A stretch of 64,000 nt of DNA from an uncultured Flavobacteriales bacterium (GTDB lineage Bacteria > Bacteroidota > Bacteroidia > Flavobacteriales_D > Parvicellaceae). A program made the position numbers and the translations under genes. Positions 41,744 through 55,292 of the stretch are shown here, piece by piece. The stretch spans positions 1,550,001-1,614,000 of the forward strand of contig CALSRM010000003.1 of assembly GCA_943788755.1 (NCBI GenBank). Direction: 5' to 3'. Under the pieces are notes generated by a model, which made no database searches, was not told where the DNA came from, and saw nothing but the letters and a program-made list of their open reading frames with translations. The stretch's first letter is position 1. Each line of letters begins with the position of its first letter.

Positions 41744-42592
41744 TTGTCCTACAAAAACAACATATCGTTCATCGTACCCAAAAGAAAGTTTTTCAAATTA
41801 AACTTGATTGAGCTTTGGTTGTATAAAGATTTATTGTTCCTGTTTGTTAAAAGAGACTTTATATCTGTTTATAAGCAAACTATTTTAGGTCCAATGTGGT
41901 TCTTTATTCAACCGGTGTTTACTACAATTATTTTCACTGTTATATTTGGGAAATTTGCTGGTTTATCAACTGAGGGCACCCCTCAGATTCTGTTTTATCT
42001 TTCAGGAATTACTTGTTGGAATTATTTTGCTGAATGTTTAACCAAAACATCAACAACTTTTGTTGATAATCAAAATATATTTGGAAAAGTTTACTTTCCA
42101 AGACTAATAAGCCCTCTTTCGATAGTATTATCAAATTTACTTAAATTTGGAGTTCAATTTTCTCTTTTTCTTATGGTATATTTTTATTATTTATTTAAAG
42201 AAGATACCGTTTTAAATCCTAATTTATTGATTTTTATGTTTCCATTTTTGATTATTTTAATGGGGCTCCTCGGATTAGGTTTGGGTATGATAATATCTTC
42301 ATTAACTACTAAGTATAGAGATCTTCGTTTCTTGATACAATTTGGCATTCAGCTATGGATGTATGTTACTCCAATTATATATCCCTTGTCATCTCTTAAT
42401 GGTAAACTAAAAACAGTCGCAATTCTTAACCCAATGACCTCAATTATTGAAACATTCAAATATTCTTTTGTTGGAAATGGATCCTTTAGTTGGGCTTATT
42501 TAACATATACATCAGTAATTACCATATTTATTCTTTTTGCAGGAATATTGATTTTTAACAAAACTGAACAAAATTTTATGGATTCAATTTAA
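41744..42592 (+). CDS. wzm: ABC-2 type polysaccharide/polyol-phosphate exporter, permease subunit
   Basis: 282 residues. Start is a TTG, the only start-like codon after the upstream in-frame TAA. The cytoplasmic N-terminus has LWLYKDLLFLFVKRDFISVYKQT and then LGPMWFFIQPVFTTIIFTVIFG, the first helix with the conserved LGxxW entry of Wzm-type permeases. Five further helices follow, with MIISSLTTKYRDLRFLIQFGIQLWMYVTPIIYP and a final VITIFILFAGILIFNKTE. It exports a finished, lipid-linked polysaccharide across the inner membrane. The next gene, its ATPase, begins at the base after its stop. Confidence 0.92.
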   Translation: MSYKNNISFIVPKRKFFKLNLIELWLYKDLLFLFVKRDFISVYKQTILGPMWFFIQPVFTTIIFTVIFGKFAGLSTEGTPQILFYLSGITCWNYFAECLTKTSTTFVDNQNIFGKVYFPRLISPLSIVLSNLLKFGVQFSLFLMVYFYYLFKEDTVLNPNLLIFMFPFLIILMGLLGLGLGMIISSLTTKYRDLRFLIQFGIQLWMYVTPIIYPLSSLNGKLKTVAILNPMTSIIETFKYSFVGNGSFSWAYLTYTSVITIFILFAGILIFNKTEQNFMDSI

Positions 42593-43870
42593 ATGGATAT
42601 TACAAGAATTAATATTGAAAATTTATCCAAACAATATAGAATTGGAGAGATTGGTACAGGAACTTTATCTCACGACATAAATAGATGGTGGTATAAATTA
42701 AGGGGTAAAGATGATCCTTATAAGATGATTGGTTCTAAAAATGATAGAACAGCTAATATAGATACCAATTATGTTTGGGCGTTAAAGAATATCAACTTTA
42801 ATGTCAAAGATGGTGAAGTCATAGGTATAATTGGCAAGAATGGAGCTGGTAAAAGTACATTGCTTAAAATATTATCCAAAGTTACTGGTCCAAGTAACGG
42901 AAAAATTACTGTAAATGGAAGAATTGCTGCTCTTTTAGAGGTAGGGACTGGTATGCATCCTGAACTTACTGGAAAAGAGAACATATATCTCAATGGAGCC
43001 CTTTTGGGGATGACGAAAAAAGAAGTTTCTAGTAAATTTGATGAAATCGTTGATTTTGCTGGTATATCCTTGTATATCGATACGCCTTTTAAAAGGTATT
43101 CTTCCGGAATGAGAGTTAGGCTGGGTTTTGCGGTGGCCGCGTTTTTAGAACCAGAAATTTTAATTGTTGATGAAGTTTTGGCTGTAGGGGATGCCGAGTT
43201 TCAAAAAAAAGCAATAGGAAAAATGAAAGAAGTTTCCGCTGAAAGAGGAAGAACTGTCTTATTTGTCAGCCATAACATGAATTCAATTAATTCCCTATGC
43301 AATCGTTGTATATATTTAAAAGATGGTGAGATTTATGCTATTGGAGAAACAAATTATATTATAAATAAATACTTGAGTGATGATTCTAATGGTAGGTTTA
43401 AAATATCATTTAAAGAAAATCAACCAGGAGATGAAATAGCTATTCTTGAAAATGCAAGATTAATCAATTCTAAAAAGCAAACAATTGAGTATTCCAATAT
43501 AACAGATAAAATAGGTGTAGAATTTACTTATGAAATACTAAAAAATGGATACTTTCCCATTCCAAATATTAGAATGCATACATCAAAAGGAGAATGGGTA
43601 TTTACTTCTGCAGAACAACAGGAGGAAAATAATTGCAAAATAGGAAAATATACAATTGTTTTCTGGATTCCTGAAAATTTTTTAAATGTTGAAAACTATT
43701 TGATTACAATTGGTTTATCAACCATGTCTCCTTTAATTATTCATTTTATTGTTAAAGATGTTTTAGCTATAAATACAATTGAAAATATAAATGATAGAAA
43801 TGAAGGACATAATCAAAAAATTGCTGGAATTATCAGACCTAAATTAAACATCGAAAATAAAAAACATTAA
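42593..43870 (+). CDS. wzt: ABC transporter ATPase with C-terminal carbohydrate-recognition domain
   Basis: 425 residues. The N-terminal nucleotide-binding domain has Walker [16 protein letters not shown], the Wzt/TagH-type [19 protein letters not shown], signature [16 protein letters not shown] and Walker [13 protein letters not shown], then FVSHNMNSI. Residues about 265-410 form a beta-rich domain like that of E. coli O9a Wzt, which in that system binds the modified non-reducing end of the O-chain before export. The presence of this tail implies a chain-end signal on the polymer, for which the kinase-containing protein at 52425-54225 is a candidate source. Confidence 0.93.
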
Positions 43871-50733: not shown

Positions 50734-51512
50734 ATGAATCGTTTTATACAATATCTTCATTTAATATTTGGAAATAAGACAATATTAAATTTATTTCAGA
50801 AGATTTCTGGAACAAAAATATACAAATCTATTCCATATGGGGTAGATTTTTTTAATGACGTGAATGAACACTTAGGTAATTATACTTTTGAAGTTATATT
50901 TGATGTTGGTGCTAATATTGGTCAATCTGCTCAATATTTTAGAGAAAAGAAAAAAAATTCAAAAATTTTATCATTTGAACCTTTTGAACAAACTTTCAAT
51001 CAACTTAAGAAAAATGTCAAAAAAAAAGATATTGAATGCTATAATATTGCTTTTGGTTCAAAAAATGAAAATATTAAAGCAAACTATGATTTAAAAAAGC
51101 CATATTCTGTAAAAAACAGTTTATCAGAAAAATCTAAACCGAAATACTCAAAAGAATGTATCATTAAAGTAGAAAAACTTGATGATTTTATTTTTGAAAA
51201 AAAAATTGAAAAGATTAATTATTTAAAGATTGATACTGAAGGTTTTGATTTGGAAGTATTAAAAGGTTGTAAAAAAAACACTTTCAGAAAGTAAAATTGA
51301 TTTTATAGAAATAGAAGCTGGGATGAACCCAACAAATAAAATTCATGTTTCATTTACCAATTTAAAGAATTTTCTTGAAGAAAAATAATTACTTTATATT
51401 TGGCTTTTATGAACAAATAAATGAAAAATCATTCGCTAATGGTATATATCTAAGAAGGTCTAATGTAGTTTTCGTATCCAATAAAGTTAACCATGAGTGC
51501 TTCAGAAAATAA
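50734..51512 (+). CDS. FkbM family methyltransferase (one or two frameshifts)
   Basis: About 259 residues. Motif I is EVIFDVGANIGQSAQYF, followed by ILSFEPFEQTFNQLKKN, ECYNIAFGSKNENI and INYLKIDTEGFDLEVLKGC, the set that defines FkbM SAM-dependent O-methyltransferases. A shift at an A run near 51280 moves into SESKIDFIEIEAGMNPTNK and a further shift near 51385 gives NGIYLRRSNVVFVSNKV, ending at TAA 51510-51512. The tail overlaps the next gene by 20 bp. It probably O-methylates a sugar of the polysaccharide. Confidence 0.85.
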
Positions 51513-52406
51513 TATTAAAGTATCTATTATAATGATGGCATACAATCAAGCTAAATTTATTGATAAAGCTATAGATTCGGTTATTAAGCAAATATTGAAT
51601 TATGACTGGGAGTTATTAATAGCTGATGACGCATCAAATGATGACACCTCTGAAATTGTAAAAAAATGGGTAAAGAAATATCAGTCAAATATATTTTACC
51701 ACCAAAATGAAAAAAACATTGGCTTACAAAAAAATTATGTAAAATTAGAAATAAATGTAATGGCCAATATATAGCTCATCTTGAAGCTGATGATTATTGG
51801 ATTGATCCAATGAAAACATCCAAACAAATTAAATTACTTGATGAACACCCTGACATGACATGGTGTTTTACAAATGGTCAAAAAATAGATAACCAAGGAA
51901 AATTAATTAAAGAAATAAATAATAATTTACCTTCGTCATTTGACTTTTATTTTTTCTTGAAAAACAAACTAAATCCTTTAAATAATTCAATTATTTACAG
52001 AAATAATTTAAAATCAAGAACCTTTCCAAAATATTTTTTTTCAATAATTCAATGGGACGTAGTATTAATGTATCAAATGAGTTTGAATTCAATAATTGGA
52101 TTTGTTCCGGTAAACGGACTTGCTTGGAGAAGACATGAAAATGCAACTTCATTTTCAAAAGAATTTACTGGATACAAAAGATATAAAGACTGGATGGTTA
52201 TTAATGAAGAAATGAAAAAAATATTAGATATTAAGTTTCATAAATTTTTTACCAATAAGTATGCCTACGAATTTTTAATGCTTGCAGCTTTAAAGAACAA
52301 TAAAATTTTTAAATTTCTATATTATTTAACATTTTTTCTTCTAACCAAACCAATTTTGAATTTGAGTTACATGAGGGATGTTTTCTGGAAACTTAGGAAC
52401 GTGTAA
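51493..52406 (+). CDS. Glycosyltransferase family 2 (one frameshift)
   Basis: About 304 residues. It begins IKVSIIMMAYNQAKFIDKAI and has WELLIADDASNDDTSEIV and FYHQNEKNIGLQKNYV. A shift near 51745 joins KCNGQYIAHLEADDYWIDP, which carries the DxD-like metal site (EADDYW), and CFTNGQKIDNQGKL, then WDVVLMYQMSLNSIIGFVP with VNGLAWRRHENATSF, the C-terminal acceptor segment of GT2 enzymes. It transfers a sugar in the glycan chain; donor unknown. Confidence 0.87.
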
Positions 52407-52424
52407 AACTAAAATTATCAATTA

Positions 52425-54225
52425 ATGAATTCGGAAGGTATAATTAGGGAAAAACATTTGATTATTGATTGGAAAATAAATTTTGAAGAATCTGAAATGA
52501 TTAATTATATCAGTGAATTCAAATTAAGCCTCATAGAACTTATAAAGCATGATAAAATCAAAAATAAATCTACTGTAATGAGTAAATTTTATAATATGGA
52601 GGTTGATGATTTTAGGGGGGAATCATGTTTTCATATTTATCTCATTAATGACTTAAATCCCTTGTATGATTATAGATTAACATCTAAAGGTCAAAGAATT
52701 GTGAACACAAAATTATTTGATTTAAAAAAAAAACTACGAGAAAAGTCAGGTGGGTTTTACAATTCATGGCACGGATAACATACAAGAAACAAAAGATAAT
52801 TTAAGAGTTTTAGGTTTATTCAATAAATACTACAAGAGAAAAAAATTTAATACTATTAATGAAGTCTTCAGGGCTCTAAATAAGACTGAAAGATTAAAGT
52901 GGCTTGTGCTTAGAAACTTTGATAAAATGCCAAATCAAATACAAATAGACGAACATTTAGATATTGACTTATTAGTTAATGATTACTATCTTGTTAAAAC
53001 CGTTTTGGATTCGGAGAGTCTCAAAGAAGGCTTTGGATGTGCTGAGAAAAATAGCTTTGAAAATGGAGGTTACAGAGTTTTAAATACAGTTTCAATAAGT
53101 AATAATGAGGTCCTTTTTGATTTTAGATTCCTTGGCGATAATTACTATGACATTAAATTTCAAAAAGAACTACTTAGTTCAAGAGTAAAACGTAATAACT
53201 TTTATATACCCGAAAAGCAAAACTATCTATATAGTCTATTATATCACGCTCTCATTCATAAAAAAAGAGTATCTAAAACATACATTAAAACGTTTGATTC
53301 ATTTAAGACATTACAAAATAAAGAAATTAACCAACTTAAAGAATTATTAGATGAATTTTACAAAAAAAGAGGATATAGTTATGTCAAGCCATTGGATGAA
53401 TCAGTAATATTTAACTATAAAACCATAAATAACACCGAGGAAAAGAAATTAAAATTCATAAAATCATCTATTAATAGAATTGATTTTACTGATTACTGCA
53501 GTGAGGTTTATTTTTTAGAGGATGAATCAGTTTTGAAAAAGGCCACAAAACCAATTTGTGAAAATGAAAACAGATCCCTTAAAAGGTTAAATAGATATGA
53601 TTTTTTTCCGAAAATAACAGAATTCAAAAAAGATGATCAAATTATAATTGAAAAAATAAATGGTTTTAATTTTATAATGGTTCATGAAGAATCTTCTTTT
53701 TGGACAAAAAACAATATCATAGATATTTATTTAGATGCTATTGATATATTGATTGCAATGCATAAAGAGGGTGTAATTCACAGAGATATCACACCTCATA
53801 ATTTAATTGTCGAGTGTATTAAAAACAGCTATAAATTAAAACTAATTGATTTTGGATGGTCCACTTATTTCAATGAAAATAATCCCATTACTCCAAATGG
53901 TCTTGGGTCAAGTTATAAATACAAAGAGGGTGAATTCTCTGATATATATTCAATGGGTATGTCGCTTTGTCACTTCAACATTTTGAGAAGTTTTAAAATA
54001 ATAAATGACCATTTACTTAAATTTAGTCCTGACAATTATGAATATCCACAAGAAACAATTGTAAAACTGAAAATTATAAGAAAAAAGGTTTTAAATATTA
54101 AAAAAAGATTTTTATTAAAAGATGAGTTATACTTTTTCGCTAAACGAAAAAAATTGAGCTCAAGAATAAAAAAATCATTTCCGTATAAAATTTTATTAAA
54201 ATTGAAATCCAAATTATTTGTATGA
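52425..54225 (+). CDS. Unusual three-part protein: NDPK-like, nucleotidyltransferase-like and protein-kinase-like domains (one frameshift)
   Basis: About 599 residues when joined across a shift near 52752. The N-terminal about 130 residues end with FTIHGTDNIQETKDNLRVL, close to the IHGSD-x-x-ExAxxEI active-site region of nucleoside diphosphate kinase, including the His-Gly-x-Asp. Next, residues about 155-280 have WLVLRNFDKMP and EHLDIDLLVNDYYLV, a DxD pair like nucleotidyltransferase folds, then YSLLYHALIHKK. The last part is a kinase fold: SVLKKA (the Lys), ENENRSLKRL (a likely helix-C Glu), VIHRDITPHNLIV with catalytic HRD (Asp about 454) and Asn, and LKLIDFGWS with the DFG Asp. All key kinase residues are present. 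No membrane segment. Proposed role: phosphorylation or capping of a glycan; see findings. Confidence 0.75.
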
Positions 54226-55292
54226 TTACGATTTTTCGAAAAAAACTGAAAATAAAAACTCAATTACCCAAAAACTGTGCAAACAAAGATCTATTTATTT
54301 TTAAAAGGAGAGAATTTTACTATCTTCCAAAATTGATAGTTAATGAGAAAAAAAATGTATTTCTCACCCATTATGGAATCATTTTGAAAAACATGTTGCC
54401 AATTCGCTACTCACTTCCGAATGCATTCGGTTTTAGAAAGCCTAACGCCGGATTCATTTTTCAATTTTACCGTAAAGCTTTAGAGACATTCCTCGTATGC
54501 CGTTTTGGCAAGAGTCTTGAATCAATAAAACTAAGTAAAGAAAAAAAATATCTTTTTGCTTTTTCTCCATGGTTTGGCTATTTTTCCTGGATTACAGAGA
54601 GCCTTCCAAGGATTTACTCAACTGAGAAGGAACATGAAAAGCTAACATTAATATTACCTGAATCCTACTCAAATAAATCCTTTGTAATGGAAAGCCTAAA
54701 GGTATTTCCTAATCTGTCATATGAAATAATACCAGAGGGAGTTCATATGAATATACCTAAAGCAATCATTCCCGAACTAAAGCCATTTACCTACGTCTTT
54801 AATCCTAAGACAATGATAGAGTTCAGAAAAAAAATGTGGTCATATGTTGATGATTTAAATTTTAATATTGACCGGCATAAAAAAATATATGTCTCAAGAT
54901 CTAAGGCCAAAAATAGAAAAATTGTCAATAATGATCAGGTTGAATCTTCTTTCATTAACAATGGATTTGAAGTTCTAAATTTCGAGGATTATTCATTTTT
55001 TGAGCAAGTTTACCTAATGAAGCACTGTAATATTCTTGCCGGTGTTCACGGCGCAGGATTTGCTAATATCGCATTCATGGCTGAAAATTCGTCGTTATTT
55101 GAACTTATAAAGGAATATTCGTCTTATAAAGAGGAACGTCCAAGCTATTGGAGACTTTGCTCTGCATTAAGGATTGACTATTACATTCAATATTGTGAAC
55201 CAAAAGAATATGGAAATTATGATTTATGGGTAGGTGTCGATTTAAAAGTAAATATAAATGAACTTGAAGATAACCTCAACAATATTTGTTAA
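54222..55292 (+). CDS. GT61 (DUF563) family glycosyltransferase
   Basis: 356 residues, intact, starting inside the kinase-protein stop (ATGA). The C-terminal half has KKIYVSRSKAKNRKIVN, NFEDYSFFEQVYLMKHC and GVHGAGFANIAFMAENSSLFELI, the GT61 signature (VxGxHGAGLxNxxF). PWFGYFSWITESLPRIY near residue 115 is the acceptor-side motif HWxxxxLPR variant. Eukaryotic members are xylosyl- or GlcNAc-transferases; bacterial ones occur in surface-glycan loci with no fixed donor. No membrane helix. Confidence 0.88.
   Translation: MITIFRKKLKIKTQLPKNCANKDLFIFKRREFYYLPKLIVNEKKNVFLTHYGIILKNMLPIRYSLPNAFGFRKPNAGFIFQFYRKALETFLVCRFGKSLESIKLSKEKKYLFAFSPWFGYFSWITESLPRIYSTEKEHEKLTLILPESYSNKSFVMESLKVFPNLSYEIIPEGVHMNIPKAIIPELKPFTYVFNPKTMIEFRKKMWSYVDDLNFNIDRHKKIYVSRSKAKNRKIVNNDQVESSFINNGFEVLNFEDYSFFEQVYLMKHCNILAGVHGAGFANIAFMAENSSLFELIKEYSSYKEERPSYWRLCSALRIDYYIQYCEPKEYGNYDLWVGVDLKVNINELEDNLNNIC

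Follow-up and report, generated by a model that had tools for sequence, protein, structure and literature searches.

A recurrent three-domain module of nucleoside diphosphate kinase-like, nucleotidyltransferase-like and kinase parts that likely acts on glycans

What might a protein do that appears to join a nucleoside diphosphate kinase-like (NDPK-like) domain, a nucleotidyltransferase-like (NTase) domain and a protein-kinase-like domain within a locus for an exported glycan? This question is raised by a 64,000-nucleotide stretch of DNA (the window) from an uncultured Flavobacteriales bacterium, which spans positions 1550001-1614000 of contig 3 in a genome of 3.17 Mb. The ABC-export context assumed in the original prediction is present in the window, where the gene for a Wzm-type ABC-2 permease (41744..42592, plus strand; Pfam ABC2_membrane, 4e-19) is followed on the same strand by the gene for a Wzt-type ATPase (42593..43870; Pfam ABC_tran, 5.5e-23). 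The C-terminal extension of this ATPase resembles the Wzt_C domain, which it matches at 5.2e-6 and 26.9 bits, under the cut-off of 30.4. Further genes on the plus strand include an FkbM methyltransferase that is frame-broken at its end (50734..51294; Methyltransf_21, 6.8e-19, profile positions 1-138 of 173), a glycosyltransferase family 2 gene that is divided in two by frame breakage (51493..52406; Glycos_transf_2, 9.4e-17 for the first piece) and, directly downstream of the three-part protein, a family 61 glycosyltransferase (54222..55292; Pfam Glyco_transf_61, 1.2e-20).

The coding region itself is divided in the assembly between two open reading frames that lie in different frames of the plus strand. 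ORF1 (52425..52778, 117 aa) encodes the N-terminal part with most of the NDPK-like domain and ends at a stop that results from a frame break, and ORF2 (52750..54225, 491 aa) encodes the end of the NDPK-like domain, the NTase domain, the kinase and a basic C-terminal tail. The frame break is at 52751..52760 on the plus strand, where GGTGGGTTTTACA contains an extra base that is probably a homopolymer indel, and removal of one base there yields a joined protein of 599 aa. Homologues with the same domain order from Rickettsiales (L038, 684 aa), from L041 (602 aa) and from Alphaproteobacteria (L058, 636 aa) are intact and uninterrupted at the join, and comparison with homologues indicates that conserved residues are retained on both sides of the break. 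Because these intact homologues read through, the join of ORF1 to ORF2 is very probably real, and the 599-residue fused protein is very probably genuine. Thus the single three-part protein originally predicted is borne out in that each of the three elements exists, although they are not encoded in one open frame; a stop between the parts, named at the time as evidence against a fusion, does occur literally in the assembly, where homology argues for a sequence error. Programmed frameshifting was also considered and rejected, as there is neither a stop nor an obvious slippery site at the join. When read by eye, about ten further genes in the 37.8-61 kb region of the window (37800-61100) look frame-split, including those for a sugar epimerase, DegT, RfbF-like and PglD-like proteins, GT2, FkbM and asparagine synthase, so the assembly probably carries many uncorrected indels.

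The NDPK-like domain (52434..52833, plus strand; residues 4-136 of the joined protein) is recognized by its predicted fold. An AlphaFold2 model of the first two parts, for which joined residues 1-338 were submitted with 14 sequences, has a pLDDT of 89.5 and a pTM of 0.87. In VIA-align, residues 4-136 match the nucleoside diphosphate kinase (NDK) 4wbf with a Z of 10.6 over 115 residues at 2.9 A, and among the matches listed 50 of 50 are NDKs; the top Foldseek matches are likewise NDKs, with E about 1e-3. The ferredoxin-like NDPK fold anticipated for the N-terminal part was therefore found. An active-site-like His114 is located in an IHGTD motif (52762-52779, plus strand) and is invariant, together with T86, K101 and R105, in 14 sequences; the His is also present in relatives in which the NTase comes before the NDPK-like domain (class 2), the order being NDPK before NTase in class 1. 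Besides the fold and the active-site His, the domain shares conserved Arg and Thr positions with NDKs (PF00334) in a profile alignment. However, the Pfam NDK model has no match in the window ORFs or in any of 13 family members, the equivalents of NDK Lys12 and Asn115, which contact the nucleotide, appear to be replaced (in a profile alignment of low significance), and a separate ordinary NDK is encoded elsewhere in the genome. Alignment of the NDPK-like part with real NDKs by hhalign is weak but collinear (E only 0.015-0.03), and searching PDB sequences with the NDPK-NTase profile produced no informative match. As sequence comparison to NDKs is weak, structure is needed to recognize this part. 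If Lys12 and Asn115 are indeed replaced, the domain may not use nucleotides normally; instead of a true NDP kinase, it could be an altered phosphotransferase.

The middle part (52855..53415, plus strand; residues about 144-330) contains the elements DEHLDIDLLV (52948-52977), VLFDFR (53110-53127) and LLYHALIHKK (53236-53265), all on the plus strand, and its invariant residues comprise D179, D181 and D232 (a DxD and a third Asp, in 14 sequences) as well as Y273, H274 and K279 in the same family alignment. By motif only, it is assigned as a putative Pol-beta-type NTase. A viral poly(A) polymerase is among the fold matches (E 0.011), and NDKs filled the PDB list. The uncharacterised nucleotidyltransferases of NTP_transf_5 (PF14907) likewise have a DxD and a third Asp; this family gives a weak match (0.012) in two of seven class-2 relatives and no match in any class-1 member, the window protein included. 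No convincing Pfam family match was obtained for the NDPK-like and NTase parts in any of 13 members, and NCBIfam matches of any weight are confined to the kinase part, with none in the first two. In a separate observation, predicted structures from mimivirus and Yasminevirus (BFVD A0A481Z0W0 and A0A5K0UAL1), of proteins named glycosyltransferase, weakly match the NDPK-NTase model, which suggests that giant viruses may carry the pair.

The third part (53443..53985, plus strand) matches Pfam Pkinase at 1.5e-10, above the cut-off, and has the motifs SVLKKATKP with the kinase Lys (53527-53553), HRDITPHN (53779-53802) and DFGWS (53848-53862) on the plus strand. An alignment with 16 linked kinases shows that the window kinase retains the Lys, HRD, Asn and DFG, in agreement with the kinase core originally read from the sequence, and the homologous domain of L038, which was folded whole, matches kinases with a Z of 14.4. 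There is a likeness to the Kdo/WaaP LPS kinases (PF06293) in the kinase core, in weak Kdo matches and in the LPS-core relatives, where separate Kdo-type kinases adjoin the NTase-NDPK gene. The window kinase differs from them in scoring better to Pkinase and in being fused to two catalytic-looking domains. A basic C-terminal tail (53998..54222, plus strand) was read from the sequence, is alike in L038, L041 and L058, and could possibly contact the membrane.

Relatives came from several searches: a scan of viral contigs with residues 1-319 found phage contigs, the DNA pattern IH[AG]T[DN]NxxET found bacterial relatives in many phyla, and genome profile searches added more. A first scan of genome contigs with four query sequences gave no match. 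The family is rare, with few matches in other sampled groups, no second full copy in 100 close-relative genomes or in 395 genomes of the phylum, nor any in plasmids and isolated phages. The NDPK-NTase part of the window protein is closest to phage sequences: it is 54% identical to L023 and groups within a clade of phage rows (support 98/96).

A total of 23 loci with both NDPK-like and NTase domains were counted, and the patterns and profiles used to find them are blind to kinases. In 22 of these loci a kinase is either fused to these domains or encoded alongside them (in three to four of the loci by motif only), the sole exception being L100, in which no kinase was seen. The orders observed are NDPK-NTase-kinase, kinase-NDPK-NTase and NTase-NDPK-kinase, in addition to separate genes. 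For example, in class 1 the kinase is fused C-terminally in the window, L038, L041, L058, L088, L092 (on a 248 kb contig) and L095 (with a degenerate kinase motif), is fused N-terminally in L024 and L026, and is an adjacent gene in L023, L054 and L040. Class 2 includes giant fusions with glycosyltransferases (L098 and L096, the latter also with an FkbM methyltransferase), a protein with the kinase at its C-terminus (L099), and loci with the kinase in an adjacent gene (L046, L047, L057 and L128), that of L047 being called by its likeness to the gene of its close relative L046. Additionally, a methyltransferase occurs with kinase-like parts, called from motifs only, in a fusion with a coiled-coil-like end (L089), in another fusion (L131; Pfam Methyltransf_12, 1.3e-10) and in the next gene (L053/L116). 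Because unrelated phyla and phages share the arrangement, it is not due to chance. Two domains that have no Pfam or NCBIfam match nearly always accompany a kinase, in several phyla and phages and in several gene orders, and linkage this strong usually marks one reaction sequence.

Overall, the settings of these genes are O-antigen or capsule loci, LPS-core loci, flagellar loci and phages. The original prediction would have failed had homologues been mainly outside glycan loci, but of nine bacterial class-1 loci that were inspected closely, Pfam matches and ORF reading identify eight as glycan-assembly loci, with glycosyltransferase, sugar-nucleotide, flippase or Wzm/Wzt genes around them. The exception is the alphaproteobacterial L058/L113, which is located among housekeeping genes without a glycosyltransferase; here the three-part protein (L113:3352-5259) lies among ligA, infC and exbD-like genes, and a second NDPK-like paralogue (L080) is encoded in the same genome. 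Flippase loci comprise L040, L054, L088 and L112, and LPS-core loci comprise L046 and L047, by a waaA-like gene, and L128, by a heptosyltransferase. In these LPS-core loci a separate NTase-NDPK gene adjoins a Kdo/WaaP-like kinase gene. The very large proteins at L096:1483-7335 and L098:4358-8299 carry TPR, glycosyltransferase and the NTase-NDPK-kinase set, and both are close to genes that look flagellar when read from the sequence (fliS; flagellin/csrA). Another giant protein (L097:2-6691) has an NTase directly followed by a kinase and then TPR and several glycosyltransferase domains, with no NDPK part recognized. The phage locus L026:3551-7445 encodes a glycosyltransferase and a kinase-NDPK-NTase fusion, upstream of a terminase (E 5.6e-129) and a portal-like gene.

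Several of these settings bear on the proposal that the protein caps a chain in the manner of WbdD from E. coli O9a. Like WbdD and ORF6 of K. pneumoniae O7, the window protein has a kinase and is encoded in an ABC-exported glycan locus, but it differs from both in its extra NDPK-like and NTase domains. By Pfam search the window protein lacks a methyltransferase domain, which is present in the relatives L089 and L131, and no coiled coil was seen in it by reading. The FkbM methyltransferase at 50734, suggested in the original prediction as a possible partner, is at most a candidate for that role. In two Clostridia (L049/L089 and L053/L116) the NDPK-NTase unit adjoins Wzm/Wzt genes with strong Wzt_C matches (3e-33 in L049 and 5e-31 in L053), and a methyltransferase/kinase-like/coiled-coil protein is either joined to the unit or encoded by the next gene; coiled-coil-like C-termini were noted by reading in L089 and in the neighbour gene of L053. 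L089 and L116 resemble the WbdD/O7 type in that methyltransferase, kinase-like and coiled-coil parts are found in a Wzm/Wzt neighbourhood. The kinase of the K. pneumoniae O7 terminator has no recognisable family (PMC11231755), and the Clostridial parts resemble the N-terminal methyltransferase-kinase of its ORF6, a likeness drawn by description only. The two Clostridia, the methyltransferase and kinase-like fusion of L131 and the FkbM fusion of L096 uphold the suggested link to chain-terminator-like enzymes. The Clostridial parts by Wzm/Wzt support capping as one use of the module, and chain capping by the window protein itself is plausible. Capping as a general role is not supported, however, as several homologues occur in flippase loci, in LPS-core loci or by flagellar genes, settings that make modification of glycans with phosphate a likelier general role than export capping.

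Our preferred reading, which we give a probability of roughly one half, is that the protein would be an enzyme with three active sites that adds or remodels phosphate on a sugar chain still inside the cell. The kinase would phosphorylate a hydroxyl of the glycan chain, in the manner of WaaP/Kdo kinases and WbdD. The NTase and NDPK-like domains would then act on that sugar phosphate, with one of the two delivering a group derived from a nucleotide and the other using its His to relay a phosphate. In this ABC-exported locus, the modified end may act as a cap that halts elongation and that Wzt recognizes. We infer a glycan as the substrate, action of the three domains in series and an export cap as the product. 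This reading best explains the catalytic residues kept in all three domains, the recurrent linkage and the mostly glycan-related contexts, and the recurrent module likely acts on glycans. Arguing against a cap read by Wzt are the flippase-dependent loci, the flagellar-adjacent genes and the phages, where such a cap makes no sense. Also counting against the preferred reading are the L058/L113 locus with its housekeeping neighbours, the apparent replacement of two nucleotide-contacting NDK residues, and the lack of a methyltransferase domain and of a visible coiled coil in the window protein. A more tentative scheme, which we consider unlikely, is a glycan chemistry not described before, in which the three domains would equip sugar chains with a group that bears a nucleotide or pyrophosphate, the NDPK-like His relaying phosphate to a sugar phosphate rather than to a nucleotide, and in which this group would cap or decorate bacterial surface glycans, with phages carrying their own copy.

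The alternative that survives best, although we regard it as doubtful, is that the three parts make a precursor, with the kinase phosphorylating a small alcohol or sugar, the NTase making an NDP-linked donor, the NDPK-like domain regenerating NTP and a separate transferase modifying the glycan. All three parts are nucleotide or phosphate enzymes that nearly always occur together, and pairing of a kinase with a nucleotidyltransferase matches the logic of known donor pathways such as LicA/LicC for CDP-choline and FKP for GDP-fucose. However, the ordinary NDK already in the genome makes NTP regeneration by the NDPK-like domain unnecessary, Pol-beta-type NTases usually act by moving nucleotides onto hydroxyls or polymers, not by forming sugar nucleotides, and the kinase is nearer to Pkinase, RIO and Kdo types than to APH sugar or choline kinases. 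Improbable, by comparison, is that the kinase targets proteins and that the module functions in phage-host conflict or regulates glycan assembly instead of acting on glycans. Protein kinases are indeed the best sequence similarity of the kinase, there are many weak PADLOC kinase matches, and phage contigs carry the nearest relatives of the window protein; yet the PADLOC matches span the generic kinase core only, and bacterial relatives are mostly in biosynthetic glycan loci, including fusions with glycosyltransferases and methyltransferases. The defence role suggested by PADLOC was set aside because of that restricted span. Finally, it is very improbable that the fusion is unreal in this organism and reflects an assembly artefact or pseudogene, as the frame broken at the join and the many frame-broken neighbours would allow, given three intact homologues in other phyla with exactly the same order and the conserved residues that flank the break.

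No description of a kinase-NTase-NDPK triad was found in the open-licence literature searched, and the earlier statement that no enzyme with such a domain order has been described holds for this literature and for family libraries. The three-domain module is real, recurrent and, in the literature searched, undescribed. If the preferred reading of glycan modification is true, there would be an unrecognized phosphate chemistry in the assembly of O-antigen, LPS-core and flagellar glycans. The module would also be a candidate for a new class of enzymes that terminate chains, and many unannotated genes would acquire a testable role.
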